DNA of 64,000 nt from Maritalea myrionectae DSM 19524 (lineage in GTDB: Bacteria > Pseudomonadota > Alphaproteobacteria > Rhizobiales > Devosiaceae), in the NCBI RefSeq assembly GCF_000423365.1, contig NZ_AUHV01000003.1:558001-622000 (forward strand), read 5' to 3'. The position numbers and the translations under genes were made by a program. Below are positions 8,835 to 48,606 of this stretch, piece after piece (the stretch's first letter is position 1; each line of letters starts with the position of its first letter). The notes below the pieces were generated by a model, which did no database searches, was not told the origin of the DNA, and was given only the letters and a program-made list of their open reading frames with translations.

Positions 8835-9020
8835 TAGATGGTTCCAGGGCGTTCTAACGACAAACTGGATGAAAAGGGAATATGGTGCGATCGACCCAAA
8901 CAGGGGATCAAGTCCATAGCTGCCCCCGCAACTGTGAGCGGATAGCGAGCTGAGATCACCACTGGCCAAGTGCCGGGAAGGTTCAGACATCGCAATGACC
9001 CGCAAGTCAGGAGACCTGCC
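8835..9020 (+). promoter_or_regulatory. Cobalamin (AdoCbl) riboswitch
   Basis: All conserved blocks of the B12 aptamer occur in order: TGGTTCC, GGATGAAAAGGGAA, the B12 box region AAGTCCATAGCTGCCCCCGC followed by AACTGTGAGCGG, CCACTGG, GCCGGGAAGG, and the closing GACCCGCAAGTCAGGAGACC-TGCC. Binding of adenosylcobalamin to such elements normally shuts off expression of the downstream gene. Here that is the CbiX/ferredoxin-like gene. A CGGG/CCCG pairing (about 9042-9056) lies just before the AAGGAG ribosome site at 9061-9065 and may serve as expression platform. Confidence 0.95.
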
Positions 9021-30965: not shown

Positions 30966-31418
30966 ATGCGGGAAGTTCTCACGAAGAACGCGGCACGCAA
31001 TATATTTTATGGCGGGTCCTTGTTCTTCATCCTGATTTTTGTGGGTCTTTCTGCCCACTCTCATTGGTACATTCAGAATGTTTCAACCGATCACGCTGGG
31101 CTGACTGAAAGCGTCGCCAAGGGCAAACGCCTTTGGGAAGTCAAAGCCTGCATCAACTGCCACTCAATTTTGGGCGAAGGGGCTTATTTCGCACCGGAGT
31201 TGGGCAATGTGATGCAGCGCTGGGGCGTTCAAGACGACCACGAAACCGCCTTTGAAGTGTTCAAAGGGTGGATGGAAGCCCAACCCACTGGCATCGAAGG
31301 CCGTCGCCAAATGCCGCAATTCAATTTGACCGATGAAGAATTAAAGCACCTGACAGACTTTTTGCTCTGGACAGGCACAATCGACACTCAGGGCTGGCCG
31401 CCCAATGATGCCGGTTAA
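30966..31418 (+). CDS. norC: Nitric oxide reductase cytochrome c subunit
   Basis: 150 residues. One N-terminal anchor helix (about 13-35), then a periplasmic cytochrome c domain with haem motif CINCH (C62, C65, H66) and likely axial M116 in RRQMPQF. It passes electrons to NorB for reduction of NO to N2O. AAAAGGAGG lies directly upstream of the ATG. First gene of norCBQD. Confidence 0.97.
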   Translation: MREVLTKNAARNIFYGGSLFFILIFVGLSAHSHWYIQNVSTDHAGLTESVAKGKRLWEVKACINCHSILGEGAYFAPELGNVMQRWGVQDDHETAFEVFKGWMEAQPTGIEGRRQMPQFNLTDEELKHLTDFLLWTGTIDTQGWPPNDAG

Positions 31419-31432
31419 GAAAGGGCTGAACA

Positions 31433-32812: not shown

Positions 32813-32817
32813 GCATC

Positions 32818-33633
32818 ATGCATGGTACTTTTGACAAAAACATCAGAAAGGACGGGGCATCAGCCCCGTTCTACCTGCCGCAAGCAGACGAATGTGATCT
32901 GTTTGAAGCCGCACACGACAACAATCTGCCCCTGTTGCTCAAAGGACCAACCGGGTGCGGTAAAACGCGCTTTGTCTCCCACATGGCGGCAAAGCTCGGC
33001 AAAAAACTCTACACCGTCGCTTGTCACGACGATCTATCTGCAGCCGATCTGATCGGGCGCTATTTGCTCAAAGGCGGCGAGACTGTCTGGGTGGACGGTC
33101 CCCTTACCCGCGCCGTGCGGGAAGGCGCCATTTGTTACCTCGATGAGGTGGTGGAAGCCCGTAAAGACGTGACCGTGGTGCTGCACCCGCTCACCGACGA
33201 TCGGCGCATTCTGCCTATCGACCGCACAGGCGAAGAGTTGGAAGCAGCCCCCGGCTTTATGCTGGTGGCGTCTTACAACCCCGGCTATCAGAACATTCTG
33301 AAAACCCTAAAGCCGTCCACACGCCAACGTTTTCTGGCCATGGAATTTAACTTCCCCGCCTTTGACGAGGAAGTGCAAATCGTCATGCAGGAAAGTGGCA
33401 TTGGCAAAGACCGGGCCGCCCTTCTGGTGCGTCTGGCTGGCAAATTACGGGCCTTGAAAGGGCAGGATTTGGAAGAGGGTATTTCCACCCGCCTGATCGT
33501 TTATGCCGCCACCATGATCGAAAAAGGCATGCCCGTGGAACGCGCGGTGCAATCTGCCATGATTGAACCCCTGACCGATGATGAAGACGTGAAACTGGGT
33601 CTTAATGATCTGGTTGCCGCGGTGATTGGATAG
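32818..33633 (+). CDS. norQ: MoxR-type AAA ATPase NorQ
   Basis: 271 residues from the ATG at 32818; a longer frame from 32680 runs inside norB. Walker A KGPTGCGKT (42-50), Walker B AICYLDEVVEA, sensor NPGYQ, and arginine finger region PSTRQRF. With NorD it is needed to insert iron into NorB. norD starts four bases after its stop. Confidence 0.94.
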   Translation: MHGTFDKNIRKDGASAPFYLPQADECDLFEAAHDNNLPLLLKGPTGCGKTRFVSHMAAKLGKKLYTVACHDDLSAADLIGRYLLKGGETVWVDGPLTRAVREGAICYLDEVVEARKDVTVVLHPLTDDRRILPIDRTGEELEAAPGFMLVASYNPGYQNILKTLKPSTRQRFLAMEFNFPAFDEEVQIVMQESGIGKDRAALLVRLAGKLRALKGQDLEEGISTRLIVYAATMIEKGMPVERAVQSAMIEPLTDDEDVKLGLNDLVAAVIG

Positions 33634-33637
33634 CAAG

Positions 33638-35587
33638 ATGGATAAGACCTTTGATCCCCGCCATATTGAACCTTGGGAACCAGAAGAAACAATTGGCAAA
33701 ATCTGGCATGATTTCGCCACCCAAGCGACTGCACCCGTGCAGTTTGAAGACGCCGCGATTGAACTCGGCGTGCTTTCAAAACGCTTGGCGGTCTTTTTCC
33801 GGGGTTTAGGCGGGCATCATAGTGTCGACATCCGTCCTGTTGCAGCAGAAGCCAGCGACCAGCGCCTGTCTTTTCGGCAAAAGCTGGGGCATGAACGCTT
33901 GGCGGTGGCGCGCGCGTCTTTTGATGGCGAAGTGTTGCGCCTGCCCGAAAAGCTGGCCTTCTTTCCTGATCAAAACGCCAACGCCGCCCTTTATATTTGG
34001 TTGACTGCAAGTGCCGCATTCTCCACGCCATTCGAACCGCAAGACAATCCACTGGCGGCTGACTTGATGGCGCTGGCGCGGGCACAAAAGGTCACCAATC
34101 AAGTCCTGACAGAATGTCCCGGTCTTGCGGCATTGCACGGCGAATTGGCCGCCATGAGCCTCTATGTTCGCCCTGCGCATAAATTGCCGAAATCAGAAGC
34201 AGCCATTGAAGAAATTATCCAACACTTGCTGGGCCACCCTGCCCCCTTGGGCACACTGGCTGAGATCTATTTGGACCGTATCGAAAAAGGCAATTTCGAG
34301 GATATAGCGGCGCCCTCCAATTATTGCCCCTTTGCGCCCGTCCCCATGTGGTGTGAAAATCGCGATTTGCTGTTCAGCGCCCCATCTGATGTGGCCACCA
34401 TGGATGCCGAACGCGCCGAGGAGGTCAACAAAGAGGGTCTTTTCCGCGCTCGGCGACGCAAGTCCGATCAGGCCGAGCGCAAGGACAGCCTGATCCTACA
34501 CAAATTCGAGGCGATCCTTTCCTGGGCAGAGTTTATGAACCTCAATCGTCGTGTCGATGACGACGACAATGACGACGCAAAAAAGGCAGCGGACGATCAG
34601 GACGAGATTGGCCTCGGCCAGATCTCCAAAGCCCCGGCAACCCGTTTGAAATTACACTTGGATCTCGCCCCCGAAGATGTGGACCGCGAGCGCTTGGCGG
34701 GCAAAACCCTCTATCCTGAATGGGACGTGCGCACCAACGCCTATCTGCCTGACCATTGTCAGGTGTTTGAAAGCAAGGGTGAAATCAAAGACGAAGTCCC
34801 CTCTTTTCGCGCCGACGCAAACTCCGCCCGCCGGATCAATGCGGTGAAACGTCAATTTGAAGCCCTGCGCCCCGGCCGCGTCATCATCCCCGCCCAGCGC
34901 GATGGAGATGATTTGGATATGGAAGCCGCCGTGCGGGCGCAGGCAGACTTGAAAGCCTGCGGCGAAAGCAATGATAATATCTGGCGGCAATCCCGCCCCG
35001 AAGCGCGCGACTTGGCCGTCTCCATTTTGCTGGATGTGTCCCGGTCTACAGAAAGCGCGGTCGGCGACAGGTCCGTCATTGAAGTCGAGCGTGAGGCCTT
35101 GGCTGCCCTCGCATGGGGTCTGAACGCCTGTGGCGACAATTTTGCCATCAACGCCTTCTCCTCACTCAAACGCGACCGCGTATATCTGACCAAATGCAAA
35201 GATTTTAACGAGACGATGAGCGAGAGCGTCGAACAAAAAATTGGTGCGCTCAACCCCGGCTTTTATACGCGACTTGGGGCCGCCATCCGGCACACATCCG
35301 TGGAGCTGGCCAAACAATCCAGCAACAAACGGCTATTGCTCGTGATCACCGATGGCAAACCCAACGATCTTGACCATTATGAAGGCCGCCATGGCATTGA
35401 AGATACGCGGGTGGCGATCAATGAAGCCCGCCGCCTCGGGCACGCCGTCTATGGCATCACCATCGACGCCAAGGGCCAAAGCTGGTTTTCCCGCATGTTC
35501 GGCCCTGGCCGTTTTTCTATTATTCCACAGCCAGAAAAACTGACCCAAGCCCTGCCGCAAATCTATCGGCAATTGGTGATCGGCTAA
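33638..35587 (+). CDS. norD: NorD, VWA-domain activator of NO reductase
   Basis: 649 residues from the ATG at 33638; a TTG at 33626 in frame is less likely. The C-terminal von Willebrand A domain (about 450-645) has the MIDAS DVSRST (DxSxS) and VITDGKPND; the N-terminal part is a helical region with an acidic stretch DDDDNDD (about 305-312) and a basic patch before it. It partners with NorQ. About 260 bp follow before the next gene. Confidence 0.94.
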   Translation: MDKTFDPRHIEPWEPEETIGKIWHDFATQATAPVQFEDAAIELGVLSKRLAVFFRGLGGHHSVDIRPVAAEASDQRLSFRQKLGHERLAVARASFDGEVLRLPEKLAFFPDQNANAALYIWLTASAAFSTPFEPQDNPLAADLMALARAQKVTNQVLTECPGLAALHGELAAMSLYVRPAHKLPKSEAAIEEIIQHLLGHPAPLGTLAEIYLDRIEKGNFEDIAAPSNYCPFAPVPMWCENRDLLFSAPSDVATMDAERAEEVNKEGLFRARRRKSDQAERKDSLILHKFEAILSWAEFMNLNRRVDDDDNDDAKKAADDQDEIGLGQISKAPATRLKLHLDLAPEDVDRERLAGKTLYPEWDVRTNAYLPDHCQVFESKGEIKDEVPSFRADANSARRINAVKRQFEALRPGRVIIPAQRDGDDLDMEAAVRAQADLKACGESNDNIWRQSRPEARDLAVSILLDVSRSTESAVGDRSVIEVEREALAALAWGLNACGDNFAINAFSSLKRDRVYLTKCKDFNETMSESVEQKIGALNPGFYTRLGAAIRHTSVELAKQSSNKRLLLVITDGKPNDLDHYEGRHGIEDTRVAINEARRLGHAVYGITIDAKGQSWFSRMFGPGRFSIIPQPEKLTQALPQIYRQLVIG

Positions 35588-35682
35588 GCAAATACGGGCG
35601 TCTTCGCACAGCAAGACTTGCGCAAGATTGCCCGGAATTGCATTTTTTCCATTCAGTCAAATGTGACAAAACTGATAATTTC

Positions 35683-35711
35683 TTGACAGGACACATCAAA
35701 CTGAATGAATA
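35683..35711 (+). promoter_or_regulatory. Possible promoter of the polyamine ABC operon
   Basis: TTGACA at 35683-35688 in the 260-bp gap between norD and the binding-protein gene, with TGAATA 17 bp downstream as a poor -10. The gap otherwise holds short AT-rich inverted repeats (TCAGT/ACTGA at 35653-35675) and nothing that reads as a gene. Confidence 0.3.
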
Positions 35712-35847
35712 TCTTCAAACTGTCACAAAAGTGCTAAGGTTGTTGATTAGACCTCACGGCATCGCACAACCGTGGCGCGATAATAATAAGGGCGCATGTC
35801 ACTGGGCAAACTTTTGGCTGGACGTTCAATTCAAGTGGAGAGAAATC

Positions 35848-36915
35848 ATGAAAAAGATTCTGACATCAGGCATCGCACTGCTCGCAGCAGGCGTTATGGG
35901 CGCAACTTCTGCGCAGGCTGAAACGTTGCGTTTGTTGACCTGGGGCGGCTACGCACCGGAAAATGTTATTGAGTTGTTTGAAGCGGAAACTGGCCACACA
36001 GTGGAAGTGACCAAATCCAACAACGAAGAAATGGTCGCCAAACTGCGCGCCACAAATGGCGGCGGCTTCGATTTGGCCCAGCCCAGCCAAGACCGGATCG
36101 CCGGTGCACAGGCTGAATTCGACATTTACAAGCCAATTGATCTTTCAAAAATCGACGAGAGCCAGTTTATCACGTCCATGCTGGAAGCCACCAAGGGCAA
36201 CACCACCTATAATGATGAAATCTATGGCGTGCCGCACGTTTGGGGCACATCAGGCCTGGTGGTCAACAAAGCCGAAGCAGGCGATGTGAAAGACTATCTT
36301 GATCTTTGCGATGCTTCAGTTGCTGGCAAAGTATCCTACCGCTTGAAGCGCCCAACATTGATCGGCTTCGCCTTCTCAATGGGTCTTGACCCCTTCGCCG
36401 CGTACAATGACGAAGAAGCCTATAAAGACATCTTGGCCAAAGTTGAAGACAAGCTGATCGAATGTAAGCCAAATGTGAAAACATATTGGGGCGGTGGCGA
36501 CGAGATCAAAAACCTCTTGCGCTCTGGCGAAGTGGTTGCAGCCATGGCTTGGGATACAGGCGGCTGGTCTTTGAACGAAGACAATGCAGACATCACCTTT
36601 GTGGCCCCTGAAGCTGGCGCTTTGGGCTGGATCGACACATTCGTGCTGCCTAAGCGTGGTCGTGCTGACGAAGCGGCTTATGCGTGGATCAACTTTGTGA
36701 TGCAGCCTGAAATTGCTGCGATGATCACAAATTCTGCAGGCAACTTCACAGCCTCTAAAGGTGGCGATGAAGGCGTGGATGAAGCCCTGAAGGTACGCTA
36801 TCAGGAAAGCTTCCCACCAGAAGCTGTTGACAACATCAAGTGGTACCCAACCGTGCCAGCGAACCTCGAAACTCTCGAAGGCGCTGTACTTGATCGCGTA
36901 AAAGCAGCAAACTAA
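35848..36915 (+). CDS. Spermidine/putrescine-type binding protein (PotD-like)
   Basis: 355 residues from the ATG at 35848, with GGAGAG nine bases upstream; a frame to 35638 without ribosome site is rejected. Sec signal peptide to A24 (AQA|ET). Mature start LRLLTWGGYAPENV, with later VPHVWGTSG, WGGGDEIKNLLRSGEV, and MAWDTGGW: the PotD/PotF binding fold. Acidic residues in these loops would hold amines. Gene is followed by a strong hairpin before the ATPase. Confidence 0.93.
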   Translation: MKKILTSGIALLAAGVMGATSAQAETLRLLTWGGYAPENVIELFEAETGHTVEVTKSNNEEMVAKLRATNGGGFDLAQPSQDRIAGAQAEFDIYKPIDLSKIDESQFITSMLEATKGNTTYNDEIYGVPHVWGTSGLVVNKAEAGDVKDYLDLCDASVAGKVSYRLKRPTLIGFAFSMGLDPFAAYNDEEAYKDILAKVEDKLIECKPNVKTYWGGGDEIKNLLRSGEVVAAMAWDTGGWSLNEDNADITFVAPEAGALGWIDTFVLPKRGRADEAAYAWINFVMQPEIAAMITNSAGNFTASKGGDEGVDEALKVRYQESFPPEAVDNIKWYPTVPANLETLEGAVLDRVKAAN

Positions 36916-36940
36916 GCGAACGCACATCAATCTTTAAAGA

Positions 36941-36965
36941 GAGGCGCGAACTTCGCGCCTCTTTT
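36941..36965 (+). terminator. Terminator-like hairpin after the PotD-like gene
   Basis: GAGGCGCGA (36941-36949) and TCGCGCCTC (36953-36961) with a 3-base loop, followed by TTTT, and flanked by AAAGA upstream which can extend the stem. It lies 26 bp after the binding-protein stop and 19 bp before the ATPase start. Confidence 0.8.
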
Positions 36966-36983
36966 GCATCGCCGGAGCCTTGA

Positions 36984-38120
36984 ATGAGCCAGCAACCTGC
37001 CTCTGCACAAAACACCAATCCCGCTGCTGCATTTGATTTGGAATGCCGCAACATCAACAAAGATTTTGATGGTTTCAAAGCGGTCAATAATGTCAGTTTC
37101 AATGTGCCCACCGGCACTTTCTTTTCGATATTGGGCCCGTCCGGCTGCGGTAAAACCACCCTGTTGCGCATGGTGGCCGGCTTTCAAACGCCTTCCAGCG
37201 GCGATTTGCTGATCAAAGGCAAGTCCATGATCGGCGTACCGCCCAACAAGCGCCCCGTCTCCATGGTGTTTCAGCATCTGGCGCTGTTCCCGATGATGGA
37301 CATTGCCGCCAATGTCGGCTTTGGCCTGCGCCAGCGCGGCGTGCCGCGCGAAGATATTGCCAAGCGGGTAGAAACCGTTTTGGAACGGGTCGGACTGCCC
37401 GGCGTCGGCAGTCGCCATATCAGCCAGCTTTCCGGCGGCCAGAAACAGCGCGTGGCCATTGCCCGCTGCATGGTGCTGGAGCCTGATGTCCTTTTGCTGG
37501 ACGAACCCCTCGGCGCGCTCGATTTGAAGCTGCGCGAGCATATGAAAATTGAGCTGAAAAAGCTGCAATCAGAATTTGGCACCACCTTTGTTTATATCAC
37601 CCATGACCAATCTGAAGCGCTGGTGATGAGCGACCAGATCGCGGTGATGAACCATGGTGAGTTCGAACAGGTGGGCGCCGCCCGTGAGCTTTATCACGAA
37701 CCCAAAACAGCCTTTGTCGCGGGCTTTGTGGGCGAAGCCAACAGCTTCACCGCAAAAGTGGACAGCATCAATGGCGATGCCGCCACGCTGGTCAGTGATG
37801 ACGGGTTGAACATCAAGGGCCACGACGCCTCCGGCAATCTGCAACAAGGCGATAAGGCCAAAGTGTATGTGCGGCCGGAATCGATCCGGCTGGCCACCAG
37901 CGCCGACCAACTCGACAATGTTGAGAATCTCAATCAGGGTATTATCGAAAACATCCTGTTTAACGGCGCCAACAGCCACATCTTGCTGCGCGAAGAAAAA
38001 TCCGGCGGCGAGCTGAACGTGGCGATCCCGCAAACCGGGCAGTTCCGCGACCTCACCAGAGGCGACAAAGTCTATATCGGCTGGGAAGCAGCGCAAACCC
38101 GCTGCTATAAGGAGAGTTAG
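36984..38120 (+). CDS. Polyamine-type ABC ATPase (PotA-like)
   Basis: 378 residues with Walker A GPSGCGKTT (about 51-59), signature LSGGQKQR, Walker B LLLDEPLGALDLKLRE, H-loop in VYITHDQ, and a TOBE domain after about 280. It energises the permeases that follow at once: the next start is inside or beside its stop. Ribosome site GGAG five bases before the ATG. Confidence 0.94.
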   Translation: MSQQPASAQNTNPAAAFDLECRNINKDFDGFKAVNNVSFNVPTGTFFSILGPSGCGKTTLLRMVAGFQTPSSGDLLIKGKSMIGVPPNKRPVSMVFQHLALFPMMDIAANVGFGLRQRGVPREDIAKRVETVLERVGLPGVGSRHISQLSGGQKQRVAIARCMVLEPDVLLLDEPLGALDLKLREHMKIELKKLQSEFGTTFVYITHDQSEALVMSDQIAVMNHGEFEQVGAARELYHEPKTAFVAGFVGEANSFTAKVDSINGDAATLVSDDGLNIKGHDASGNLQQGDKAKVYVRPESIRLATSADQLDNVENLNQGIIENILFNGANSHILLREEKSGGELNVAIPQTGQFRDLTRGDKVYIGWEAAQTRCYKES

Positions 38121-38121
38121 A

Positions 38122-38985
38122 ATGAACAGCGTTCACTCTCGCCTCAGCCTCTATCTGCTGTTCACGCCCTTTCTGCTGTGGCTGGCGCTGCTGATCATCA
38201 TCCCTCACATTTTTATGTTTCTGGTGTCGATCAGCGTCAAAACCGGCGTGCGCGAATATGTGACCGGCCTGGGCAATTATATGGTGTTTTTCACCGAGCC
38301 GCTTTACTGGAACACCTTTGCCCGCACGGCCTTTATGTCGATCTCGGCCACATTTCTAACGCTGTTGATCGGCTTTCCGGTCGCCTATTACATCGCCAAG
38401 CTCACCCGCGGCCGCACCAAAACCACTTTGTTTTTGATGTGCCTTATTCCCTTCTGGGTCAGCGAGCTGGTACGCACCTTTGGCTGGATGATCTTGTTGC
38501 GCGAAACCGGCATCTTCTCGTCGTTCCTGCAATATATTGGCCTCGCTTCAGAGCCGATTGAATTCTTGTACAATGACGCCGCCATTATGGTCGGCCTTGT
38601 CTACACCTCCATGTTGTTCATGGTGGTGCCACTGGTCACAACGCTCGATAGCCTCGACGACAGCCTGATTGAAGCGGGCTATGATCTCGGGGGCAACGGC
38701 ATCACGGTCCTGCGCGAAATCATCATCCCCCACGCTATGCCCGGCATCGTTTCGGGCTGCATCGTGGTGTTTATGCTGTCGCTGGGCAACTATCTCACGC
38801 CGATCCTTTTGGGCGGCAAAGACAGTTTGTGGTTCACCGGCCTGATCTATGATCAGTTCATCACCCGCTTTAACTGGGAGTTGGGCTCGGCCTTCGGCTT
38901 CCTGCTCTTGATCCTGTCCTCAACCATTGTGTGGGCTGGCCTAAAACTTTCCGGCCAATCCCTCACCGACACAGTGGGGCGGTAA
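38122..38985 (+). CDS. Polyamine-type ABC permease (PotB-like)
   Basis: 287 residues, six membrane helices, EAA loop LIEAGYDLGGNGITVLREIIIPHAMPG (shown in family form), start one base after the ATPase stop with AAGGAGAG upstream. Pairs with the permease at 38987. In-membrane part of the second polyamine-type importer of the window. Confidence 0.93.
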   Translation: MNSVHSRLSLYLLFTPFLLWLALLIIIPHIFMFLVSISVKTGVREYVTGLGNYMVFFTEPLYWNTFARTAFMSISATFLTLLIGFPVAYYIAKLTRGRTKTTLFLMCLIPFWVSELVRTFGWMILLRETGIFSSFLQYIGLASEPIEFLYNDAAIMVGLVYTSMLFMVVPLVTTLDSLDDSLIEAGYDLGGNGITVLREIIIPHAMPGIVSGCIVVFMLSLGNYLTPILLGGKDSLWFTGLIYDQFITRFNWELGSAFGFLLLILSSTIVWAGLKLSGQSLTDTVGR

Positions 38986-38986
38986 A

Positions 38987-39847
38987 ATGATCAGAACACT
39001 TCCCCAATCCAACACCTTCAAATGGACCTATCGTGCCTATGTGACGCTGTTTTTTGTCTATCTGGCGCTGCCGCTCACCGTGGTGTGCCTGATGGCGTTC
39101 AACAACAGCGTCTTCCCCTCCCTGCCATGGGAAGGGTTCACCTGGGCATGGTTCTTCGGCGATGAAGACCCGTTTATCGGCGTGTTTAATGACCGCTCAA
39201 TCTTGCGCTCGATCGGCACCTCCATGTTTGTGGCCTTCTGGGTTTCCCTGCTCTCCATTGCAGTGGGCACCACCAATGCCTTTTTGTTTGTGCGGCACGA
39301 TTTCAAGTTCAAAGAATTTTTCTATATCTTGATGCTGCTGCCGCTGATCATTCCCGGCATTATCCTGGGCATTTCCATTCTGGTGTTCTCCAACGCCGTG
39401 GCCAACAATCTGGAAAACGCCACCGGCATGTGGTTTGACGGTCTGCGTCCTGGTCTGCCGTTGGTGATCCTCGGTCAATTCAGCTTTATCGCCACTTTCG
39501 CCACCTTGGTGATCTCGGCGCGGCTGGAAAAGTTTGATCGGTCACTGGAAGAAGCTGCGCTTAATCTGGGCGCGACACGGCTGGGCGCGATCCGGCAGAT
39601 CACCATGCCCTTCCTGTTTCCGGCCATTGCAGGCGCAGGCGTTGTCGCCATTTTGATGAGCTTTGAAAACTTCAACACCACTTTGATGCTGGTCGGCTCC
39701 GATGCGCCACTCACCATCAATATGTTTGACCGTTTGAAGCTTGGCTCCACTCCGGTGCTGAACGCAGTGTCGCTGCTCCTGATCGTGGTGTCCGCCCTGT
39801 TGGGCCTCGTAAGCCTGCTGTTCCAAAAGCGGGACAAATCTAGCTAA
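38987..39847 (+). CDS. Polyamine-type ABC permease (PotC-like)
   Basis: 286 residues, six membrane helices and the EAA motif LEEAALNLGATRLGAIRQITMP (interrupted as in the family). It begins one base after the stop of the PotB-like gene. The operon order binding protein, ATPase, permease, permease differs from the first pot-like operon (permease, permease, binding protein, ATPase), so the two are separate acquisitions or rearrangements, not a tandem copy. Confidence 0.93.
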   Translation: MIRTLPQSNTFKWTYRAYVTLFFVYLALPLTVVCLMAFNNSVFPSLPWEGFTWAWFFGDEDPFIGVFNDRSILRSIGTSMFVAFWVSLLSIAVGTTNAFLFVRHDFKFKEFFYILMLLPLIIPGIILGISILVFSNAVANNLENATGMWFDGLRPGLPLVILGQFSFIATFATLVISARLEKFDRSLEEAALNLGATRLGAIRQITMPFLFPAIAGAGVVAILMSFENFNTTLMLVGSDAPLTINMFDRLKLGSTPVLNAVSLLLIVVSALLGLVSLLFQKRDKSS

Positions 39848-39866: not shown

Positions 39867-39897
39867 AAAAAAAGGCCGACCACAAAGTGGCCGGCCT
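39867..39897 (-). terminator. Terminator of the GS-ALDH-ADH operon
   Basis: Minus strand AGGCCGGCCAC...GTGGTCGGCCT (stem with one A-C mismatch, 3-base loop) followed by TTTTTTT (complement of 39867-39873). It sits between the convergent PotC-like and alcohol dehydrogenase genes. Confidence 0.85.
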
Positions 39898-39927: not shown

Positions 39928-41073
39928 TCAGAAGCAAGATTTCAGCAAGTCGAGCGTATTGTCATAAGTCATCTCAACCGGATTGCCGCCCGTGCTGGGG
40001 TCCTGCAAGGCTGATTTGGTCAGCTTGTCCAAATCCGGATTTTCAATGCCCAGATCGGTTAGGTTTTTCGGGATGCCCAAATTGTCGTTGAGTTCGCCCA
40101 CAAAGGCATAAAACCCGTCAAAGCCGCCCGAAATGCCCAGATAGTTCGCGGCCATGGCCAAGCGATCTTCCACCGCGGGCCGGTTAAACTGCAGCACAGG
40201 CTGCATCACCACCGCATTGGTGGTGCCGTGGTGGGTGTTGTGCACCGCACCAATCGGGTGCGACAGCGCGTGTATAGCACCGAGGCCCTTCTGGAAGGCT
40301 GTGGAGCCCATCGCCGCGGCTGACATCATATGCGCCCGCGCTTCAATGTCAGATCCGTCCTTATAGGCTTTCGGCAGATATTCTTTCACCAGCCGCAGGC
40401 CCTCAAGCGCAATGCCTTGGCTCATGGGGTGATAATGCGGCGAACAGAACGCTTCAAGACAGTGCGCGAACGCATCCATGCCCGTGCCAGCCGTGATAAA
40501 GGGCGGCATGCCGACGCTCAGCTCCGGGTCACAAATCACCACCGCAGGCAAGATTTTCGGGTGGAAGATGATTTTCTTCTCGTGGGTCACCGAATTGGTG
40601 ATCACGGAAGCGCGCCCCACTTCAGAGCCGGTACCCGCCGTTGTCGGCACCGCCACAATCGGCGCAATCGCATCCGCATCGGCGCGGGTCCACCAGTCGC
40701 CAATATCTTCAAAGTCCCAAATCGGGCGCGTTTGACCGGCCATAAAGGCAATCACTTTGCCCAAATCCAGTGCTGAGCCGCCGCCAAAGGCGATCACCCC
40801 ATCATGGCCACCTTCGCGATATTGCGTCAGGCCTGCCTCAAGGTTTTTCTCATTTGGGTTGGGATCAACTTCGGAAAACATGGCGCGACCAAGCCCCGCC
40901 TTGTCCAGCAAGTCGAGTGTTTTGGTGGTGATCTCCAGATTGGCCAAGCCCTTATCGCTCACCAGCAAAGGTTTTTTAATGCCTGCCGCTGCGCATGCAT
41001 CCGCGATTTCAACAATACGCCCAGCACCGAACCGGATCGGTGTTGGATAATTCCAATTGCCAACTAACTTCAT
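39928..41073 (-). CDS. Iron-type alcohol dehydrogenase
   Basis: 381 residues of the group III Fe-dependent ADH family. NAD site GGGSALD (97-103) and TTAGTGSE; metal ligands D200, H204 (DAFAHC), H268 and H282 (IHALSHP, HHG). It would oxidise an alcohol to an aldehyde (or the reverse). Only 3 bp separate it from the aldehyde dehydrogenase gene, so the two may carry out alcohol-aldehyde-acid steps. Last gene of the operon, followed by a terminator. Confidence 0.92.
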   Translation of the reverse strand: MKLVGNWNYPTPIRFGAGRIVEIADACAAAGIKKPLLVSDKGLANLEITTKTLDLLDKAGLGRAMFSEVDPNPNEKNLEAGLTQYREGGHDGVIAFGGGSALDLGKVIAFMAGQTRPIWDFEDIGDWWTRADADAIAPIVAVPTTAGTGSEVGRASVITNSVTHEKKIIFHPKILPAVVICDPELSVGMPPFITAGTGMDAFAHCLEAFCSPHYHPMSQGIALEGLRLVKEYLPKAYKDGSDIEARAHMMSAAAMGSTAFQKGLGAIHALSHPIGAVHNTHHGTTNAVVMQPVLQFNRPAVEDRLAMAANYLGISGGFDGFYAFVGELNDNLGIPKNLTDLGIENPDLDKLTKSALQDPSTGGNPVEMTYDNTLDLLKSCF

Positions 41074-41076
41074 TCT

Positions 41077-42459
41077 TTAGGCTTTCTTCAAATGATAAGA
41101 TTTCGGACGGGTCAAATTGTGATAGCCAATCTCGGAAAGGCCACCGCCGCGTCCGGTGTTTTTGCAGCCGGTCCAGCACAGAGCCGGGTCCAGATAGTCG
41201 GCCCGGTTCATAAACACGGTGCCGGTTTCAATCTGGTCGCCAATGCGTTTGGCCCGCTCAATATCTTTGGTCCAAAGCGCTGCGGTCAGGCCAAACTCGC
41301 TATCATTCATCAGCTTGATGGCTTCCGCATCGTCTTTGACCTTCATGATGCCCACAACCGGCCCGAAGCTTTCGTCGCGCATCACCCGCATGGAATGATC
41401 CACATTCACCAGAATTTGCGGCATCAGATATGCACCGCCATCATCTTCAGGGAACAGCGCCGGATCAATCAACGGCTTCGCCCCTGCCGCAATGGCTTCG
41501 TTGGTTTGCGCCCGCACTTCTTCGGCAAAGCGCTTATGTGCCATCGGACCAATGGTGGTTTCGCTGTCGAGCGGGTTGCCCAACTTATAGCTCGACACCA
41601 GCTTCACAGACTTTTCGACAAACTCGTCGAACAGGCTCTCAGCCACATAAATCCGCTCGATGCCACAACAGCACTGGCCGGAATTGAACATGGCGCCATC
41701 GATCAGCGTAGCCACTGCCGCGTCCACATCCGCGTCTTCCATCACATAGCCGGGGTCTTTGCCGCCCAGTTCGGTGCCCACACCCGTAAAGGTGCCTGCC
41801 GCCGCTTTTTCCATGGCGACGCCGCCGCCCACTGAGCCGGTAAAGTTCACAAAACCGAATGACCTCGCTGCGATCAAGGCAGAAGTGGTGTCATGATCCA
41901 AAAAGACATTCTGGAACACCTCTTCCGGCACACCAGCCGCATGGAACGCTTCAGCCATCCGTTCGCCCACCAGCAAGGTCTGCGAGGCATGTTTCAACAT
42001 CACACTGTTGCCCGCAATCAGGGCGGGGGCAACGGTGTTGATGGCGGTCATATAAGGATAATTCCACGGTGCCACCACGAGCACGACCCCGTGCGGAATG
42101 CGCTCAATATAGCGCGAGAACTGGTCGCTTTCTTCAATCTCGATCGGGGCCAATGCCTTTTCGGCGATATTCGCCATATGCAGGCCACGCTCTTCAAAGC
42201 CGCCGAACTCGCCACCAAAGCGCACCGGGCGGCCCATTTGCCACGCCAGTTCTTCAACGATCTGGTCATTCATCTCGCCCACTTTGGCGATGCCCGCGCG
42301 CACCAGTGCAATGCGCTCGTCCAATGGGCGCTTGGCCCAGGCCTTTTGCGCCTCTGCCGCCTTGGCCACAGCCGCTTTCGCATCACTTTCGCTCAGCACC
42401 GGACGTTCGGCATAAACCGATCCGTCAATCGGAGAGATACATGTCACATTTTTGGTCAT
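41077..42459 (-). CDS. NAD(P)-dependent aldehyde dehydrogenase
   Basis: 460 residues, a little shorter than the ~480-500 of many ALDHs, as in the GabD/Sad-like short form. Motifs: APWNYP (130-135), FTGSVGGG, catalytic E230 in ELGGKDP, catalytic C264 in NSGQCCCG. Three cysteines in a row at the active site are unusual but seen in some relatives. It is flanked by GS-like and ADH genes with 3-bp gaps, fitting a pathway through an aldehyde of a gamma-glutamyl amine. Confidence 0.93.
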   Translation of the reverse strand: MTKNVTCISPIDGSVYAERPVLSESDAKAAVAKAAEAQKAWAKRPLDERIALVRAGIAKVGEMNDQIVEELAWQMGRPVRFGGEFGGFEERGLHMANIAEKALAPIEIEESDQFSRYIERIPHGVVLVVAPWNYPYMTAINTVAPALIAGNSVMLKHASQTLLVGERMAEAFHAAGVPEEVFQNVFLDHDTTSALIAARSFGFVNFTGSVGGGVAMEKAAAGTFTGVGTELGGKDPGYVMEDADVDAAVATLIDGAMFNSGQCCCGIERIYVAESLFDEFVEKSVKLVSSYKLGNPLDSETTIGPMAHKRFAEEVRAQTNEAIAAGAKPLIDPALFPEDDGGAYLMPQILVNVDHSMRVMRDESFGPVVGIMKVKDDAEAIKLMNDSEFGLTAALWTKDIERAKRIGDQIETGTVFMNRADYLDPALCWTGCKNTGRGGGLSEIGYHNLTRPKSYHLKKA

Positions 42460-42462
42460 ATA

Positions 42463-43827
42463 TTACGCTCTTTCAAACCCACGGGCGATTTCATAATCTG
42501 TCACCACCCGATCAAACTCTTCCTGTTCCCATTCTGCGGCACGCACATAATGGTCAACCACCGCATCACCAAACGCCGCGCGCAACATGTCGGACTTGTC
42601 CAACGTCACCATTGCCGCCCGCAAGGTCTGCGGAATTTCATCAGCCTTTTGCGCCTCATACACATCACCAGATGTGGCGGACGCCAGCTCCATTTTCTCT
42701 TCAATGCCCTTAATGCCGGCCGCCAATTGGGCCGCTACCGCCAGATATGGGTTCAAATCTGATCCGCCAATGCGACATTCCACCCGGATGGCTTTGGTGC
42801 CATCGCCACACAAGCGGAAACCCGCCGTGCGATTATCGACAGACCAAACGGTCTTGGTCGGGGCAAAGGTGCCCTTTTGGAAGCGCTTATAGCTGTTGAT
42901 ATAAGGCGCCAGAAAATAGGTATAGTCCGGCGCATATTTGATCAGCCCGGCCATATAATTGCGCATCAGCTCAGACATGCCCAACTCGGCATTGGGGTCA
43001 TAAAAGGCATTGCTGCCATCTTTCCAAAGTGATTGGTGCACGTGAGACGAACTGCCCACACGGTCATGATGCCATTTCGGCAAGAAACTCACGGCATGGC
43101 CCTGTTGCCAGCCAATCTCTTTCGCTGCATGTTTGGCAATGGTGTGATTGTCCGCACAATCCAACGCTTCGCCATAGCGAATGTTCAACTCTTCCTGCCC
43201 GGCCTCGGCTTCCCCTTTTGAGTTCTCAATCGGAATGCCCGCCGCATAGAGATGGTTGCGCAAGGGGCGCATCACCGACTCTTCTTTGGTGGTTTGCAGG
43301 ATATGATAATCTTCATTATAGCCGCTGATCGGCTCCAATTCGCTAAAGCCAGACTTGCGCACCTCATCAAAGCTCTTTTCAAAGATAAAGAACTCCAGCT
43401 CGGTCGCCGTCATGGCTTCGAAGCCCAACTCTTTCAACCGGGCGATCTGCTTTTTCAGCACCGCACGCGGCGAATGGGGAATTTCGTCATGGGTGTGGTG
43501 GTCCAGCACATCGCACAACACCATCGCGGTACCTTCAAGCCAGGGCACCAGGCGCAAAGTGGTCATATCCGGCTGCATCACATAATCGCCATAGCCGGAT
43601 TGCCAGCTGGTGGCTTTATAGCCTTCCACCGTGTGCATTTCTAAATCGGTTGCCAAAAGATAGTTGCAGCAATGGGTTTCTTCCCATGCGCTTTCCACAA
43701 AATGAACCGCGTGAAACCGCTTGCCCATCAACCGGCCCTGCATGTCGGGCAGCGCCGCAATCACGGTGTCCACCTCACCGCTTTTGACCAGTTCTTTCAG
43801 TGTCTCAAATGATAAATTACCCGGCAT
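42463..43827 (-). CDS. Glutamine-synthetase-family gamma-glutamyl ligase (PuuA/GlnT-like)
   Basis: 454 residues, the length of gamma-glutamylputrescine synthetase and related GlnA3/GlnT enzymes. Catalytic glutamates appear in ATELEFFIF and GEAEAGQEELNIRYGEAL; HHDRVGSSSHVHQSL holds the ammonium/amine and glutamate site; KTVWSVDNRTAGFRL the ATP/phosphate site. There is no C-terminal adenylylation-tyrosine loop of housekeeping GS. It probably joins glutamate to an imported amine. First of three tightly spaced catabolic genes after the TRAP binding protein. Confidence 0.9.
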   Translation of the reverse strand: MPGNLSFETLKELVKSGEVDTVIAALPDMQGRLMGKRFHAVHFVESAWEETHCCNYLLATDLEMHTVEGYKATSWQSGYGDYVMQPDMTTLRLVPWLEGTAMVLCDVLDHHTHDEIPHSPRAVLKKQIARLKELGFEAMTATELEFFIFEKSFDEVRKSGFSELEPISGYNEDYHILQTTKEESVMRPLRNHLYAAGIPIENSKGEAEAGQEELNIRYGEALDCADNHTIAKHAAKEIGWQQGHAVSFLPKWHHDRVGSSSHVHQSLWKDGSNAFYDPNAELGMSELMRNYMAGLIKYAPDYTYFLAPYINSYKRFQKGTFAPTKTVWSVDNRTAGFRLCGDGTKAIRVECRIGGSDLNPYLAVAAQLAAGIKGIEEKMELASATSGDVYEAQKADEIPQTLRAAMVTLDKSDMLRAAFGDAVVDHYVRAAEWEQEEFDRVVTDYEIARGFERA

Positions 43828-43860
43828 ATGTCTGGTCCGTCATTTTCAAATTGGCAATAT

Positions 43861-43892
43861 GCCCCGGGATGGCAAGTTGCACACCCCGGGGC
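43861..43892 (-). other. GC-rich hairpin after the TRAP binding-protein gene
   Basis: GCCCCGGG (43861-43868) pairs with CCCGGGGC (43885-43892) across a 16-base loop, eight bases after the dctP stop on the minus strand. No clean T-run follows, so it more likely protects the upstream mRNA than stops transcription. Confidence 0.55.
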
Positions 43893-43900
43893 CAGTTGAA

Positions 43901-44935
43901 TTATGTGTTGTAGCGATACGGACGACCTGCTTTTTGCATGTCCGCATTGTACTTTTTGAAGATTTCAACCACTTTCGCTTTGGTTTCAGATTGCGCTGCA
44001 ATCTCATCCCAAAACTCCAAAGCCGCCGTTTCAACCTGCTCCCATTCTTTGTCTGGAATGGTTGTGAGTTGCATCTTCTCGCCGTGTACGCGCAGTGAAG
44101 CTTCACCGCCCCAATACCACCATTGGCGATAATAGTGAGAGCTGTCCATGGTAATTTTCAACAACTCTTTCAGATGCTCTGGAAGCTCTTGATAGCGATC
44201 CATATTGGCAAAGAATGACCCTGCCCACGCACCAGAAATGTTGTTGGTGAGGAAGTAGTTGGTCACATCGGCCCAGCCCACTGTGTAATCCTCAGTGATG
44301 CCTGACCAGGCCACACCATCCAACTCACCCGTTTGCACGGCAACCTCAATATCTTCCCATGGCAAGGTGACAGGCACCACACCGAACTGGCTCAAAAAGC
44401 GACCAGCTGTCGGGAAGGTAAAGACACGTTTGCCCTTGAGATCTTCAAGGCTATTGATCGGGTCTTTTGTCGCGAAGTGACATGGGTCCCATGCACCAGC
44501 AGAAAGGTGTTTCACACCAACTTTGGAATATTCTTCGTCCCAGATTTCATTCAAACCATATTGGTTGAACAGTACCGGCACGTCCAAAGAATAACGGCTG
44601 GCAAACGGGAAATAACCGCCGAAAACGGTCACTTCTGTCGGTGAGGCCATGGAGTCATCATCCGACTGCACAGCGTCAATTGTACCTTTTTGCATGGCAC
44701 GGAACAATTCGCCTGTTGGGACGAGTTGGTCAGCGAAGAACAATTCGATTTCCATCTCATCGCCAGCAATTTTGTTAAAGCTGTCGATGGCAGGCTTGAT
44801 CACATGTTCAGCCAAAGCTGGGCCAGCATATGTCTGCATCCGCCAGCGGATCTTGTTTTGCGCAATGGCTGGTGTGGCCAAAGCTGCGGCTGGGGCCATC
44901 GCGGCACCGGCTAGAAACTTACGTCTGTTGGTCAT
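43901..44935 (-). CDS. TRAP transporter binding protein (DctP family)
   Basis: 344 residues. Tat-type or Tat-like signal NRRKFLAGAAMAPAAALATP with R4-R5, cleavage after AIA (about 25). The mature domain has the TRAP strand QLVPTGELFRAMQKGTIDAV and a strongly aromatic SSHYYRQWWYWGGEASLRV near residue 270 that lines the ligand site in several relatives. It captures the ligand for DctQM, encoded just upstream. Downstream is the glutamyl ligase gene, so the ligand may be an amine or amino acid-like compound. Confidence 0.92.
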   Translation of the reverse strand: MTNRRKFLAGAAMAPAAALATPAIAQNKIRWRMQTYAGPALAEHVIKPAIDSFNKIAGDEMEIELFFADQLVPTGELFRAMQKGTIDAVQSDDDSMASPTEVTVFGGYFPFASRYSLDVPVLFNQYGLNEIWDEEYSKVGVKHLSAGAWDPCHFATKDPINSLEDLKGKRVFTFPTAGRFLSQFGVVPVTLPWEDIEVAVQTGELDGVAWSGITEDYTVGWADVTNYFLTNNISGAWAGSFFANMDRYQELPEHLKELLKITMDSSHYYRQWWYWGGEASLRVHGEKMQLTTIPDKEWEQVETAALEFWDEIAAQSETKAKVVEIFKKYNADMQKAGRPYRYNT

Positions 44936-44990
44936 TTCCTTCTCCTTGTTTGAAGCGTTGAACGCCCATTTTCTGGGTCTTATTAGTGGG

Positions 44991-46313
44991 TTATTTTCCG
45001 TAAACCGTTTCCGGCAGCCAGAGTGCCAGTTGCGGAAAGGCCATGATCAAGCCAAGCGCCAATATCATCACCAGCACAAACGGCAGGATCGAGCCGTAAA
45101 TATCTTTGAGGGTGATTTCAGGTGGCGCCATGGCCCGCATCAAGAACAAATTGTAGCCAAAGGGCGGCGTCATATAAGCAATCTGCGTCGTGATGGTGTA
45201 AAGCACCCCATACCAGACCAGATCAAAGCCGAGCGCGGCGACCAGCGGCACATAGAGCGGTGCGACAATCACCAGCATCGCTGTGTCGTCCAGAAACGTG
45301 CCCATCAGCAAGAATGAAAGCTGCATGATGATCAGGATCACCCAGGGATTAAGGCCCAATTGCTCGGTGAACAGGCTTTCAATAGCGCGCACCGCGCCCA
45401 ACCCGTCAAACACCGCGCCAAAGCCCAATGCCGCCAAAATGATCCACATAAACATGCACGAAATCAGCAAAGTCTGCCGCACCGAAGTTTCAAATACCTT
45501 CCGGTTCATCCGACCCTTCAGCACCGCCGCGAGAAACGCTGTGATCGCCCCAATGGCTGAGCTTTCCACAAGGCTTGTCCAGCCATTGATAAACGGCACC
45601 ATCATCGCCGCAAAAATGGTAATCGGCAGTATCCCAGCACCCAGCAACCGATATTTTTCGGCCGTCGTCACGTCGCGATCTTCTTCCTTGAGCGCAGGCC
45701 CAAGCTCCGGCTGAATACGACAGCGGATATAGATGTAAAGGATAAACAGGCCCGCCATGATCAAGCCCGGCACCACACCCGCCAACCACAATTGGCCCAC
45801 AGGTGCCCGCGCGATCATTGCATAAAGCACCAACACCACGGAGGGCGGCACCAAAATGCCGAGCGAGGACCCGGCCTGGATCACCCCCGTGACCATGCGC
45901 TTGTCATAGCCACGGCGCAGCAATTCAGGCAGCGCAATGGTCGCCCCAATTGCCATGCCTGCCACCGACAGGCCGTTCATGGCCGAAACCAACACCATCA
46001 AGCCGATGGTGCCGATGGCCAAGCCGCCATTGATCGGCCCCATCCACACATGGAACATGCGGTAAAGATCGTCAGCAATTTTGGATTCTGACAGCACATA
46101 GCCCATAAAAATAAACATGGGCAGGGTCAAAAGCGGATACCATTTCATCAGCTTCATGGCCGAAGAAAACGGAATATCGGACCCACCGGTACCCCATAGG
46201 AAAATCGCGGCCACTGCGGCCACCGCCCCAATCGCCCCGAACACGCGCTGCCCGGTCATGAGCATCAGCATCATGGACGCAAACATAAAGATGGCAATCA
46301 ACTCATAAGGCAT
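44991..46313 (-). CDS. TRAP transporter large permease (DctM)
   Basis: 440 residues, about eleven or twelve helices; the GLSVAGMAIGATIALPELLRR and MGTFLDDTAMLVIVAP stretches are the conserved core. It forms the ion-coupled channel with DctQ. Its ATG shares one base with the dctQ TAA. Confidence 0.93.
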   Translation of the reverse strand: MPYELIAIFMFASMMLMLMTGQRVFGAIGAVAAVAAIFLWGTGGSDIPFSSAMKLMKWYPLLTLPMFIFMGYVLSESKIADDLYRMFHVWMGPINGGLAIGTIGLMVLVSAMNGLSVAGMAIGATIALPELLRRGYDKRMVTGVIQAGSSLGILVPPSVVLVLYAMIARAPVGQLWLAGVVPGLIMAGLFILYIYIRCRIQPELGPALKEEDRDVTTAEKYRLLGAGILPITIFAAMMVPFINGWTSLVESSAIGAITAFLAAVLKGRMNRKVFETSVRQTLLISCMFMWIILAALGFGAVFDGLGAVRAIESLFTEQLGLNPWVILIIMQLSFLLMGTFLDDTAMLVIVAPLYVPLVAALGFDLVWYGVLYTITTQIAYMTPPFGYNLFLMRAMAPPEITLKDIYGSILPFVLVMILALGLIMAFPQLALWLPETVYGK

Positions 46314-46819
46314 TAAAGCTTCACTCCTTTAAGGGTGGCAATGTCTTTGAACAGTTCGGAGATTGACTGCAAAAGCATCATGAAAATGCCAAAACACATC
46401 ACAACTTTGATCGGCCACAAATAGGGCCGCCATGCGGTGGGGCTACGTTCCCCATATTGGAAGGAATAGCTGGTGCTGTCATAAGCGCCATAAAGCATGA
46501 CGCCCAAATAGAAGATCAAAAAGAACACGGTGATCGCATCGATCTGCGCCTTCTTCTTGTCCGACCAAGCGCCGTAAAACAAATCCATGCGCACATTGGA
46601 CCCCATTTGCAGGGAATAGGGGCCACCCAAAATGTAGTACGCCACCATGGCGAACTGAGCCATTTCCAGCGTCCAGAGCGAGGGCAAAAAGAATGTTTTT
46701 GAAATCGAGGACCACAGCAAAATGCCCATCATCACGAAGATGAAGTACATGATCAGTCGGCCCATCCGATAATTGATCGCATCTACAACGCGGACATATT
46801 TGCCCATCATTGATAGCAT
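46313..46819 (-). CDS. TRAP transporter small permease (DctQ)
   Basis: 168 residues, four helices, typical DctQ with GGPYSLQMGSNVRMDLFYG (the membrane signature). It starts in a one-base overlap with the stop of the amidohydrolase gene (TAATG) and ends likewise in dctM. Confidence 0.92.
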   Translation of the reverse strand: MLSMMGKYVRVVDAINYRMGRLIMYFIFVMMGILLWSSISKTFFLPSLWTLEMAQFAMVAYYILGGPYSLQMGSNVRMDLFYGAWSDKKKAQIDAITVFFLIFYLGVMLYGAYDSTSYSFQYGERSPTAWRPYLWPIKVVMCFGIFMMLLQSISELFKDIATLKGVKL

Positions 46820-47583
46820 TAGCTCGCCTCCCCCTTGCTCGCCTCATCAAGTTGCGCCAACGCCCGCTGCACCATTTCGGCCAGCAGTCGCGCCATCTCG
46901 GCTTGCTGCGCATCCGTCTTGATCAGATCATTGCGCACTTCAATCATCACGTTCAAAAGATTATTCTCAAGCCCATGCCGCTTTAGCGTATAAGTCACCC
47001 CATCTTCAGGGCCATATGGCTCATTACGCTCGATCTTAAGATCGGACAACTCATCCGCTACGTCCAGCATCGCATCCGCCAACCGCGTGTCTTCATCATG
47101 CAAAATGCCGACTTCTGTTTCGCGGTGCGTACCAAAGTAGACCGGGGTAAAGCTATGGATGGTCACAACAACTGGCGGCACCTTCGACCAGCTAATGGCC
47201 TGCGCCACCTGCTTGTGGAACGGCGTGTAACAAAGCTCCACCCGCTCCATATATTGGTCCACGCTCAAATTCTGGTTGCCCGGCACATCAAAAACTTCGC
47301 TGCGCACTGGCACCGCATCTTTCGCCTCTGGCGGACGGTTGCAATCATAAACCAACCGCGAAACGCCGCCCACAATCATTTTGGCATTGAGCTGCTCGCC
47401 CATGCGGCGCATCACTTCATAGGCACCGGGATCCCAAGCCACATGGCTTTGCTGCACCTCTGGCTTCAATCCCAGCCCATCAAACTGTGCCGGGAAGAAA
47501 TTGGATGCGTGTTCGCAAATCAAAAGAACTGGCGACGTACCGTCCGGATTTTCCAACCGCACGGCCTCAAATTCTGAATTCAT
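46819..47583 (-). CDS. N-formylglutamate amidohydrolase-like enzyme
   Basis: 254 residues from the ATG at 47583 (MNSEFEAVRLENPDG). A GTG at 47613 has a better ribosome site (AGGAG, five bases) and would add ten residues, so the start is open. The family core is CEHASNFFP near the N-terminus, HVAWDPGAYEV, YDCNRPPEAKDAVP, IHSFTPVYFG and RNDLI, with His/Glu metal ligands in CEHAS and VTIHSFTP. Relatives split N-formylglutamate or other N-acyl glutamates. As the first gene of this operon it could release glutamate at the end of the gamma-glutamyl pathway. Confidence 0.87.
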   Translation of the reverse strand: MNSEFEAVRLENPDGTSPVLLICEHASNFFPAQFDGLGLKPEVQQSHVAWDPGAYEVMRRMGEQLNAKMIVGGVSRLVYDCNRPPEAKDAVPVRSEVFDVPGNQNLSVDQYMERVELCYTPFHKQVAQAISWSKVPPVVVTIHSFTPVYFGTHRETEVGILHDEDTRLADAMLDVADELSDLKIERNEPYGPEDGVTYTLKRHGLENNLLNVMIEVRNDLIKTDAQQAEMARLLAEMVQRALAQLDEASKGEAS

Positions 47584-47598
47584 GTGTTTTGGTTTTCC

Positions 47599-47643
47599 TG
47601 AAGAAATATGCACAACCACTCCTCGTCTGTATATATTTCTTCA
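47599..47643. promoter_or_regulatory. 11-bp inverted repeat between the hydrolase and RpiR genes
   Basis: TGAAGAAATAT (47599-47609) is mirrored by ATATTTCTTCA (47633-47643), 34 bp centre to centre. A third copy of the TTTCTTCA half lies at 47680-47687. They occupy the region between the divergent amidohydrolase and RpiR genes and are a likely operator. Confidence 0.5.
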
Positions 47644-47733
47644 CCAAGACCCAGCCTGTCAATATCTTTTCTGAAATCTTTTCTTCATATTCATTTCGTT
47701 TGTTGATAAACCAAAAGAAATGGAGATTTTGTC

Positions 47734-48606
47734 GTGTCAAAAAGCACCAGCACAGTTGCTGAGTTGTTGCAAAACAATGCAGACCATCTGACCCGGGCAG
47801 AGCGCCAGCTTTCCCAGTCATTATTGGTGAATTATCCAGTGTCAGGCTTGGGCTCAATCACTGCTGTCGCCAAGAGCGCCGGGGTCTCCACCCCCACAGT
47901 GGCGCGACTGGTCAAAAAAATTGGCTTTTCCGGTTTTCCAGACTTTCAAGCGGCCTTGCGCAACGAAGTTGAAGCCACCATTTCCGACCCCATCGCGAAA
48001 CACGACACCTGGGCTGGGCAAGCGCCCAACGAGCATATTGTCAACAAATTCACCGAAGCTGTGATTGAAAATATCCGCCATTCACTGGGTCAATTGGACA
48101 TCGAAACATTCGATCACACCTGCGAAATGCTGGCCGACACATCACGTTCGCTGTTCGTGGTGGGCGGGCGCATCACCCGATCATTGGCGGACTATTTTTT
48201 CTTGCACATGCAAGTGCTGCGCAAAGATGTGACCCACATTCAAGCGATCTCCAACGCATGGCCGCATTATCTGCTCGACATTAAAAAAGACGATGTGATC
48301 GTTATTTTCGATGTGCGCCGCTATGAAACCAGCACCCTACGTCTCGCGGAAATGGCGGCTGAAGCAGGCGCAAAAATCGTTTTGTTTACGGACCAATGGC
48401 ATTCACCCATCGCCAAACTGGCCGACCACACCTTCAGCCTTAAAATTGTCGTGCCGTCCGCGTGGGACAGTTCCGTGACCATGATGTTGTTGGTGGAAAC
48501 CATTATTGCCGACGTGCAAACCCGCACTTGGCCCGAAACGCGTCAACGCATGGAAGAATTGGAAGTCATGTTTGACCGCACAAAATTCTTCCGAAAGTTC
48601 ACCTAA
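47734..48606 (+). CDS. RpiR-family regulator with SIS domain
   Basis: 290 residues from a GTG at 47734, with GGAG nine bases upstream. HTH_6 domain (about 1-80; VSTPTVARLVKKIGFSGFP) and SIS domain (about 125-260; SLFVVGGRITRSLADYF, DDVIVIFDVRRYE). The divergent operon for TRAP uptake and glutamylation is the probable target, through the inverted repeat in between. Its last four bases overlap the convergent YigZ-type gene. Confidence 0.9.
   Translation: MSKSTSTVAELLQNNADHLTRAERQLSQSLLVNYPVSGLGSITAVAKSAGVSTPTVARLVKKIGFSGFPDFQAALRNEVEATISDPIAKHDTWAGQAPNEHIVNKFTEAVIENIRHSLGQLDIETFDHTCEMLADTSRSLFVVGGRITRSLADYFFLHMQVLRKDVTHIQAISNAWPHYLLDIKKDDVIVIFDVRRYETSTLRLAEMAAEAGAKIVLFTDQWHSPIAKLADHTFSLKIVVPSAWDSSVTMMLLVETIIADVQTRTWPETRQRMEELEVMFDRTKFFRKFT

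Follow-up and report, generated by a model that had tools for sequence, protein, structure and literature searches.

Which compound is handled by the compact set of catabolic genes between positions 39928 and 48606 of a 64,000-nucleotide stretch of the Maritalea myrionectae DSM 19524 genome (contig NZ_AUHV01000003.1, positions 558,001 to 622,000; the whole stretch is called the window)? An earlier note on this DNA had suggested an operon for amine or amino alcohol catabolism by gamma-glutamylation, with its own tripartite ATP-independent periplasmic (TRAP) importer and an RpiR regulator; it had left the substrate open and had regarded a HutG-like enzyme for the last step as new. We read the locus as an eto operon for the use of ethanolamine by gamma-glutamylation, with a probability of about 0.93. 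The operon is a further copy of an already known pathway. The outline of import, ligation, two oxidations, and hydrolysis stands; the open substrate and the novelty of the hydrolase do not. The family assignments, the gene order, and a conserved site in the divergent gap are established here, and from them we infer the enzyme steps and the regulation.

The substrate is suggested by the binding protein of the importer, EtoX (DctP type, 43901-44935, minus strand; a probable ethanolamine binder). In a phmmer search of solved structures, its residues 25-342 match 4UAB/4XF5 with 630 bits, and the next chain has only 58 bits. The structure 4UAB is Csal_0678 of Chromohalobacter salexigens, with ethanolamine bound through Glu220 and aromatic residues (PMC12410723; published work is cited here and below for individual passages, legends, and tables). 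The alignment places two glutamates of EtoX in the Glu220 region, within GELDG and ITEDY, and both are present in 4UAB. Phe172 of EtoX is aligned to an arginine of the TRAP solute-binding protein 4PET that is probably the equivalent of Arg-147, and Csal_0678 is reported as being without the usual arginine of these proteins (PMC4646407). EtoX also carries a twin-arginine signal, identified by eye. Hence, the locus has the Csal_0678/EtoX-type binding protein that marks membership in the ethanolamine operons.

A different organism, Phaeobacter sp. MED193, provides the second line of evidence. Its operon MED193_10021-10056 codes for RpiR, GGAH, EtoV, EtoW, EtoX, ETAGA, GAADDH, and GETADH (Westermann et al. 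2023, PMC10132767), and this eight-gene order is identical to the one of the window (Fig. 5 legend of the same paper). Five MED193 proteins are raised on phosphorylethanolamine, namely the hydrolase, EtoX, the ligase, and both dehydrogenases (Table 2, PMC10132767), and the MED193 EtoX binds ethanolamine with a dissociation constant of 7.9 µM (PMC10132767). From the match between EtoX and 4UAB and from this operon, the substrate left open in the earlier note is very probably ethanolamine.

The seven minus-strand open reading frames of the window lie at 39928-47619, and profile searches assign a family to each of the eight products. From the 3′ end, one finds a Fe-type alcohol dehydrogenase (39928-41073; Fe-ADH, PF00465, PF25137), in the place of MED193_10056 and probably the gamma-glutamylethanolamide dehydrogenase GETADH; an aldehyde dehydrogenase (41077-42459; Aldedh, PF00171, 391 bits), in the place of MED193_10051 and probably the gamma-glutamylacetaldehyde dehydrogenase GAADDH; a glutamine synthetase (GS)-like ligase (42463-43827; Gln-synt_C), probably the gamma-glutamylethanolamide synthetase ETAGA; EtoX (DctP); the large TRAP permease DctM, or EtoW (44991-46313; PF06808); the small permease DctQ, or EtoV (46313-46819; PF04290); and an FGase-family hydrolase (46819-47619; PF05013, 132 bits), probably the gamma-glutamylglycine amidohydrolase GGAH, with its start at a GTG at 47619 or an ATG at 47583. 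The RpiR-family regulator (HTH_6 and SIS domains), in the place of MED193_10021, is divergent, at 47734-48606 on the plus strand. From the same end the spacings are 3, 3, 73 (GS to dctP), and 55 bp (dctP to dctM), followed by two overlaps of one base. An intrinsic terminator-like hairpin closes the operon (39873-39897, minus strand; stem of 11 pairs, loop of 3, T run). A terminator-type scan of 8.9 kb gives 16 sites versus 10.3 in shuffles, and this hairpin comes first among the 16 for number of pairs and for G-C pairs. The tight spacing, the TRAP importer, the divergent regulator, and the terminator described in the earlier note are all in place.

According to the proposed pathway, ethanolamine would be imported by EtoX-EtoV-EtoW and joined to glutamate by the GS-like ligase in an ATP-dependent reaction. 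The resulting gamma-glutamylethanolamide would be converted to an aldehyde by the Fe-type alcohol dehydrogenase and then to gamma-glutamylglycine by the aldehyde dehydrogenase, and the FGase-family hydrolase would release glycine and return the glutamate. The RpiR protein would control the operon through a palindrome between its own gene and that of the hydrolase. The alcohol dehydrogenase contains D..AHC and HALSH...HG stretches, which we take to be metal ligands, and the aldehyde dehydrogenase contains GQCC and ELGG stretches, which are presumably catalytic. PF00120, PF00465, PF00171, and PF05013 are the families given for the C. salexigens pathway (Table 2, PMC9397018), and all four are present here together with the TRAP genes. 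The other ethanolamine pathway considered, the one through the Eut ammonia-lyase, was rejected, as the genome has no match to EutB in a search that detected the E. coli positive control.

The ligase has 758 bits to 5DM3 in the search of solved structures, which we take to be a protein of C. salexigens, the organism of 4UAB; the Csal_0678 neighborhood of this species was reportedly treated by Vetting et al. in 2015. The flap of the ligase reads KGTFAP, with Phe where the genome's own GlnA has Glu (PGFEAP), and is thus without the catalytic Glu327. The same replacement is printed for GlnA4 of Streptomyces coelicolor, shown to be an ethanolamine-specific ligase (mBio 2019, PMC6529630). Four PF00120 proteins are encoded in the genome. 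A better GlnA candidate (465 bits to PF00120) has the flap Glu, the operon ligase reaches 250 bits versus the GlnA equivalog cut-off of 429, and the other two GS-like proteins have Ser (L090) and Trp (L089) in the flap. A ligase that only makes glutamine, named in the earlier note as a result that would speak against it, seems improbable for a protein lacking GlnA's acidic flap residue. The glnA4 cluster of S. coelicolor also shares with the eto operon the gamma-glutamylation of ethanolamine, two dehydrogenases, and a proposed last step by an FGase-family protein; in contrast, its transporter gene codes for a permease and is missing in S. coelicolor itself, and its regulator is EpuRI (PMC6529630). 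The legend of that cluster gives a short-chain dehydrogenase and a glutamine amidotransferase (PMC6529630), and a 2022 review puts the cluster dehydrogenase in an iron-dependent family (PMC9397018).

The hydrolase has 261 bits to 2ODF (Atu2144) and only 28% identity over 174 residues with the genome's own HutG. At E ≤ 0.001 no NCBIfam family matches it, and it falls short of the HutG equivalog TIGR02017 (cut-off 278.75 bits). One of the four PF05013 proteins of the genome, on contig C4, passes this cut-off with 339 bits and its gene adjoins hutH. Because HutG is found beside HutH elsewhere in the genome, the operon FGase is not needed for histidine, and a HutG role for it was ruled out. That a member of this family carries out the last step has been suggested before: such a protein is proposed in the discussion of the mBio 2019 paper (PMC6529630), PF05013 is tabulated for the pathway in the 2022 review (PMC9397018), and a gamma-glutamylglycine amidohydrolase is placed at this step in Sci Adv 2023 (PMC10132767).

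Gene order was surveyed in the best 80 of 581 loci of relatives, fetched with the DctP protein alone at 84-97% identity, and the sample therefore leans towards close relatives. Order was scored from the best tblastn matches, ignoring spacing, in loci with flanks of at least 5 kb downstream or 4.5 kb upstream. GS, aldehyde dehydrogenase, and alcohol dehydrogenase follow dctP in order in 45 of 62 loci, 45 of 67 have RpiR, FGase, dctQ, and dctM before it, and the complete eight-gene order is found in 34 of the 55 loci with both flanks. The search for the same order elsewhere, recommended in the earlier note, thus shows it kept in most flanked relatives, which is more than chance, and a general loss of order, which would have told against the operon, is not observed. 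A close EtoX (at least 63% identity) is present in 22 of 61 related genomes, own included (two are partial and two have an internal stop), and in all six genomes of the genus. Other EtoX-like matches in the 61 genomes do not exceed 31%, among the matches listed. In two loci, L058 and L140, EtoX is followed by the ligase and the Fe-type alcohol dehydrogenase with no aldehyde dehydrogenase match between them.

Several points weigh against the ethanolamine reading. The enzyme roles proposed for this strain depend on sequence comparison. The C. salexigens pathway is graded unevenly, as "demonstrated" (PMC10132767), "predicted in silico" (PMC6529630), or "proposed" (PMC9397018). The MED193 EtoX is also raised without a phosphorus source (PMC10132767), and therefore its rise is not specific to ethanolamine. 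The literature basis for the hydrolase step consists of family, place, and induction (PMC6529630, PMC9397018, PMC10132767), and the mBio 2019 figure legend calls orf5 of its cluster, as noted, a glutamine amidotransferase (PMC6529630). Among the relatives, 17 of the 62 loci with sufficient downstream sequence lack the GS-aldehyde dehydrogenase-alcohol dehydrogenase order after dctP. Finally, when the window ligase was searched for in eight genomes (seven with an eto locus lacking the ligase, and that of L058 as control), the best-scoring match is only 30-32% identical (174 to 232 bits) in six of them.

These six genomes are those of L010, L016, L026, L039, L047, and L048. The control has a ligase match at 68%, and a ligase of 75% identity is encoded on a different contig of the L043 genome, adjoined by FGase, aldehyde dehydrogenase, and alcohol dehydrogenase (locus L105). 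Among partial matches, identity goes up to 45% (109 residues, genome of L039). As the records of L026 and L039 are metagenome-assembled and their completeness is not given, absence of the usual ligase is not proven. Aldehyde and alcohol dehydrogenases 56-61% identical to the eto ones lie near the divergent ligase in four of the six genomes (L101-L104), with FGase also near it in L102-L104. In the fifth, L106, no aldehyde dehydrogenase, alcohol dehydrogenase, or FGase was found around the best divergent ligase. To judge from these matches, a divergent ligase has likely taken the place of the usual one, the pathway being split. No description of such a replacement was found among the open-licence papers listed. 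The Fe-type alcohol dehydrogenase of L101 (16438-17615) reads as two open reading frames, through a frame break or a sequencing error, and its second half is 46% identical to the eto enzyme.

Could the same chemistry serve a different substrate, for instance one of the small amino alcohols 1-amino-2-propanol and 3-aminopropanol? The GS-like ligase, the two dehydrogenases, and the FGase would by themselves suit any primary amino alcohol, and the analogues tested in the MED193 work were phosphorylated headgroups and glycerol phosphates, no other amino alcohols apparently being among them (PMC10132767). However, EtoX is very near the ethanolamine-bound 4UAB, and the Phaeobacter operon responds to phosphorylethanolamine and has an EtoX that binds ethanolamine (PMC10132767), which makes this alternative improbable.

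A Puu-type or Ipu-type pathway acting on polyamines or isopropylamine is very improbable, although it would account for the PotD-like importer next door. E. coli Puu and Pseudomonas Ipu likewise protect the amine by a gamma-glutamyl group, and a GS-like ligase and an aldehyde dehydrogenase are also common to Puu; the two systems differ from eto in their oxidases, releasing hydrolases, and substrates. Profile searches find no flavin oxidase or amidotransferase family among the eight genes, and the genome has a separate set of ligase, aldehyde dehydrogenase, and FAD-oxidoreductase that is Puu-like by eye (L090), on which ground this type was rejected for the operon; the L090 ligase itself, with 181 bits, is below the gamma-glutamylputrescine synthetase cut-off of 650. 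An ordinary glutamine synthetase and an ordinary HutG brought together by chance would fit the broad families of the ligase and the FGase, but this is hardly credible, as both proteins fail the specific assignments given above, better glnA and hutG candidates are found elsewhere in the genome, the gene order is conserved, and the orthologs act in the pathway.

The regulation of the eto operon may involve a palindrome between the RpiR and FGase genes. The count of palindromes with exact arms is weak (at most 6 of 47 gaps versus 2 in one shuffle), and therefore a palindromic matrix was fitted to the RpiR-FGase gaps of the window and 46 loci, 47 in all, with a little coding DNA included. The fitted palindrome, tCTGAAAAnATnTTTTCAGa, has a log-likelihood ratio of 362, versus 32-37 in three shuffled sets run with fewer restarts; as the gaps come from related genomes, they are not independent. 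Trained without the window and L005, the matrix scores at least 14 in 41 of 45 gaps, its own training set. The best copy in the window, at 47655-47674, scores 19.5, and with the weaker copies starting at 47670 (16.3) and 47626 (16.2) it makes up the three best matches of the 64 kb, all inside the gap. Only the 47655 site beats every shuffle (five shuffled windows peak at 11.3 to 17.1); window positions scoring at least 13.8 number 5, and 20 first-order resamples taken together also yield 5. Its place and symmetry suggest that the palindrome is bound by RpiR. No description of the operator was found among the open-licence papers listed, which is weak evidence, and a word search for "operator", "palindrom", and "polyamine" gives no occurrence in the main text of PMC10132767.

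Two weaker operator-like sites at 35671-35719 (starts at 35671, score 13.9, and 35700, score 14.4) precede the PotD-like gene of a PotDABC-type ATP-binding cassette (ABC) importer. This importer, at 35848-39847 on the plus strand, is convergent with the operon (binding protein by profile search, ATPase and permeases by eye) and is a possible second member of the regulon. A Pot-type importer lies beside the eto operon in four of six relatives (L136-L139, and not L140 and L141), each with a weaker site or two before potD, scoring 10.6 to 14.4, among its six best matches. The upstream sites of L136 and L137 are there because these genomes are close to the window's (L137, of genome G013, shares with L005, Maritalea mobilis, an identical stretch of 15,285 bases). 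For L138 and L139, the window can be aligned only from near potD onwards, so the sites are kept though the surrounding DNA no longer aligns. L141 has a strong site (position 11372, score 19.9) between the eto alcohol dehydrogenase gene and an ABC importer that is dipeptide-type by eye. A wider regulon is not shown in the 46 loci, since matches of at least 15 outside the gap number 3, versus 2 in one resample. Before the distant ligase clusters L101-L105 the best scores (6.4 to 14.7) are within the shuffle range, and therefore no link of the operator to those clusters is shown. Ahead of the two weaker window sites, at 30966-35587, lie NorC- and NorB-like nitric oxide reductase genes and then NorQ- and NorD-like ones, by eye.

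The same genome has a second set with related proteins, L089 (contig C6:54000-73000), which codes for RpiR, a GS-like ligase, a class III aminotransferase, a Liv-type ABC importer (LivJ-type protein gene at L089:10835-11992), FGase, and an isochorismatase-like hydrolase. Its RpiR is 34% identical to the window RpiR over 276 residues and its FGase 39% identical to the window FGase. The L089 ligase has a match of at least 43% over nearly its full length in 6 of 60 relatives, including three of the five other members of the genus. The set is kept in three genus members (L129-L131), the aminotransferase not being found in L131; it is present without the aminotransferase in L133 and partial in L132, L134, and L135, where L132 and L135 belong to one genome. 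The best operator-like match in its 19 kb is weak (13.7, at 8935). No description of this gene set was found among the open-licence papers listed, again weak evidence. We propose tentatively, with the odds somewhat against the whole, that RpiR commands through the palindrome a small regulon made up of the eto operon and an ABC importer next to it (of Pot type in the genus and, by eye, of dipeptide type in a different genus of the same family) for a second ethanolamine-related or nitrogen-rich nutrient; that RpiR, GS-like ligase, and FGase form a reusable cassette, found twice in the genome with different importers; and that the L089 copy is an undescribed gamma-glutamylation pathway.

About 5 to 10% of ocean bacteria are reported to carry the EtoX gene, which is also described as highly expressed (PMC10132767), and the window adds one more carrier of the eto pathway. 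The operator motif offers a cheap route to mapping the regulon, and the ligase and FGase set of L089 is a lead to a pathway that did not turn up among the open-licence papers listed. If the eto pathway holds in M. myrionectae, ethanolamine, a lipid headgroup, would be turned into glycine without a microcompartment.

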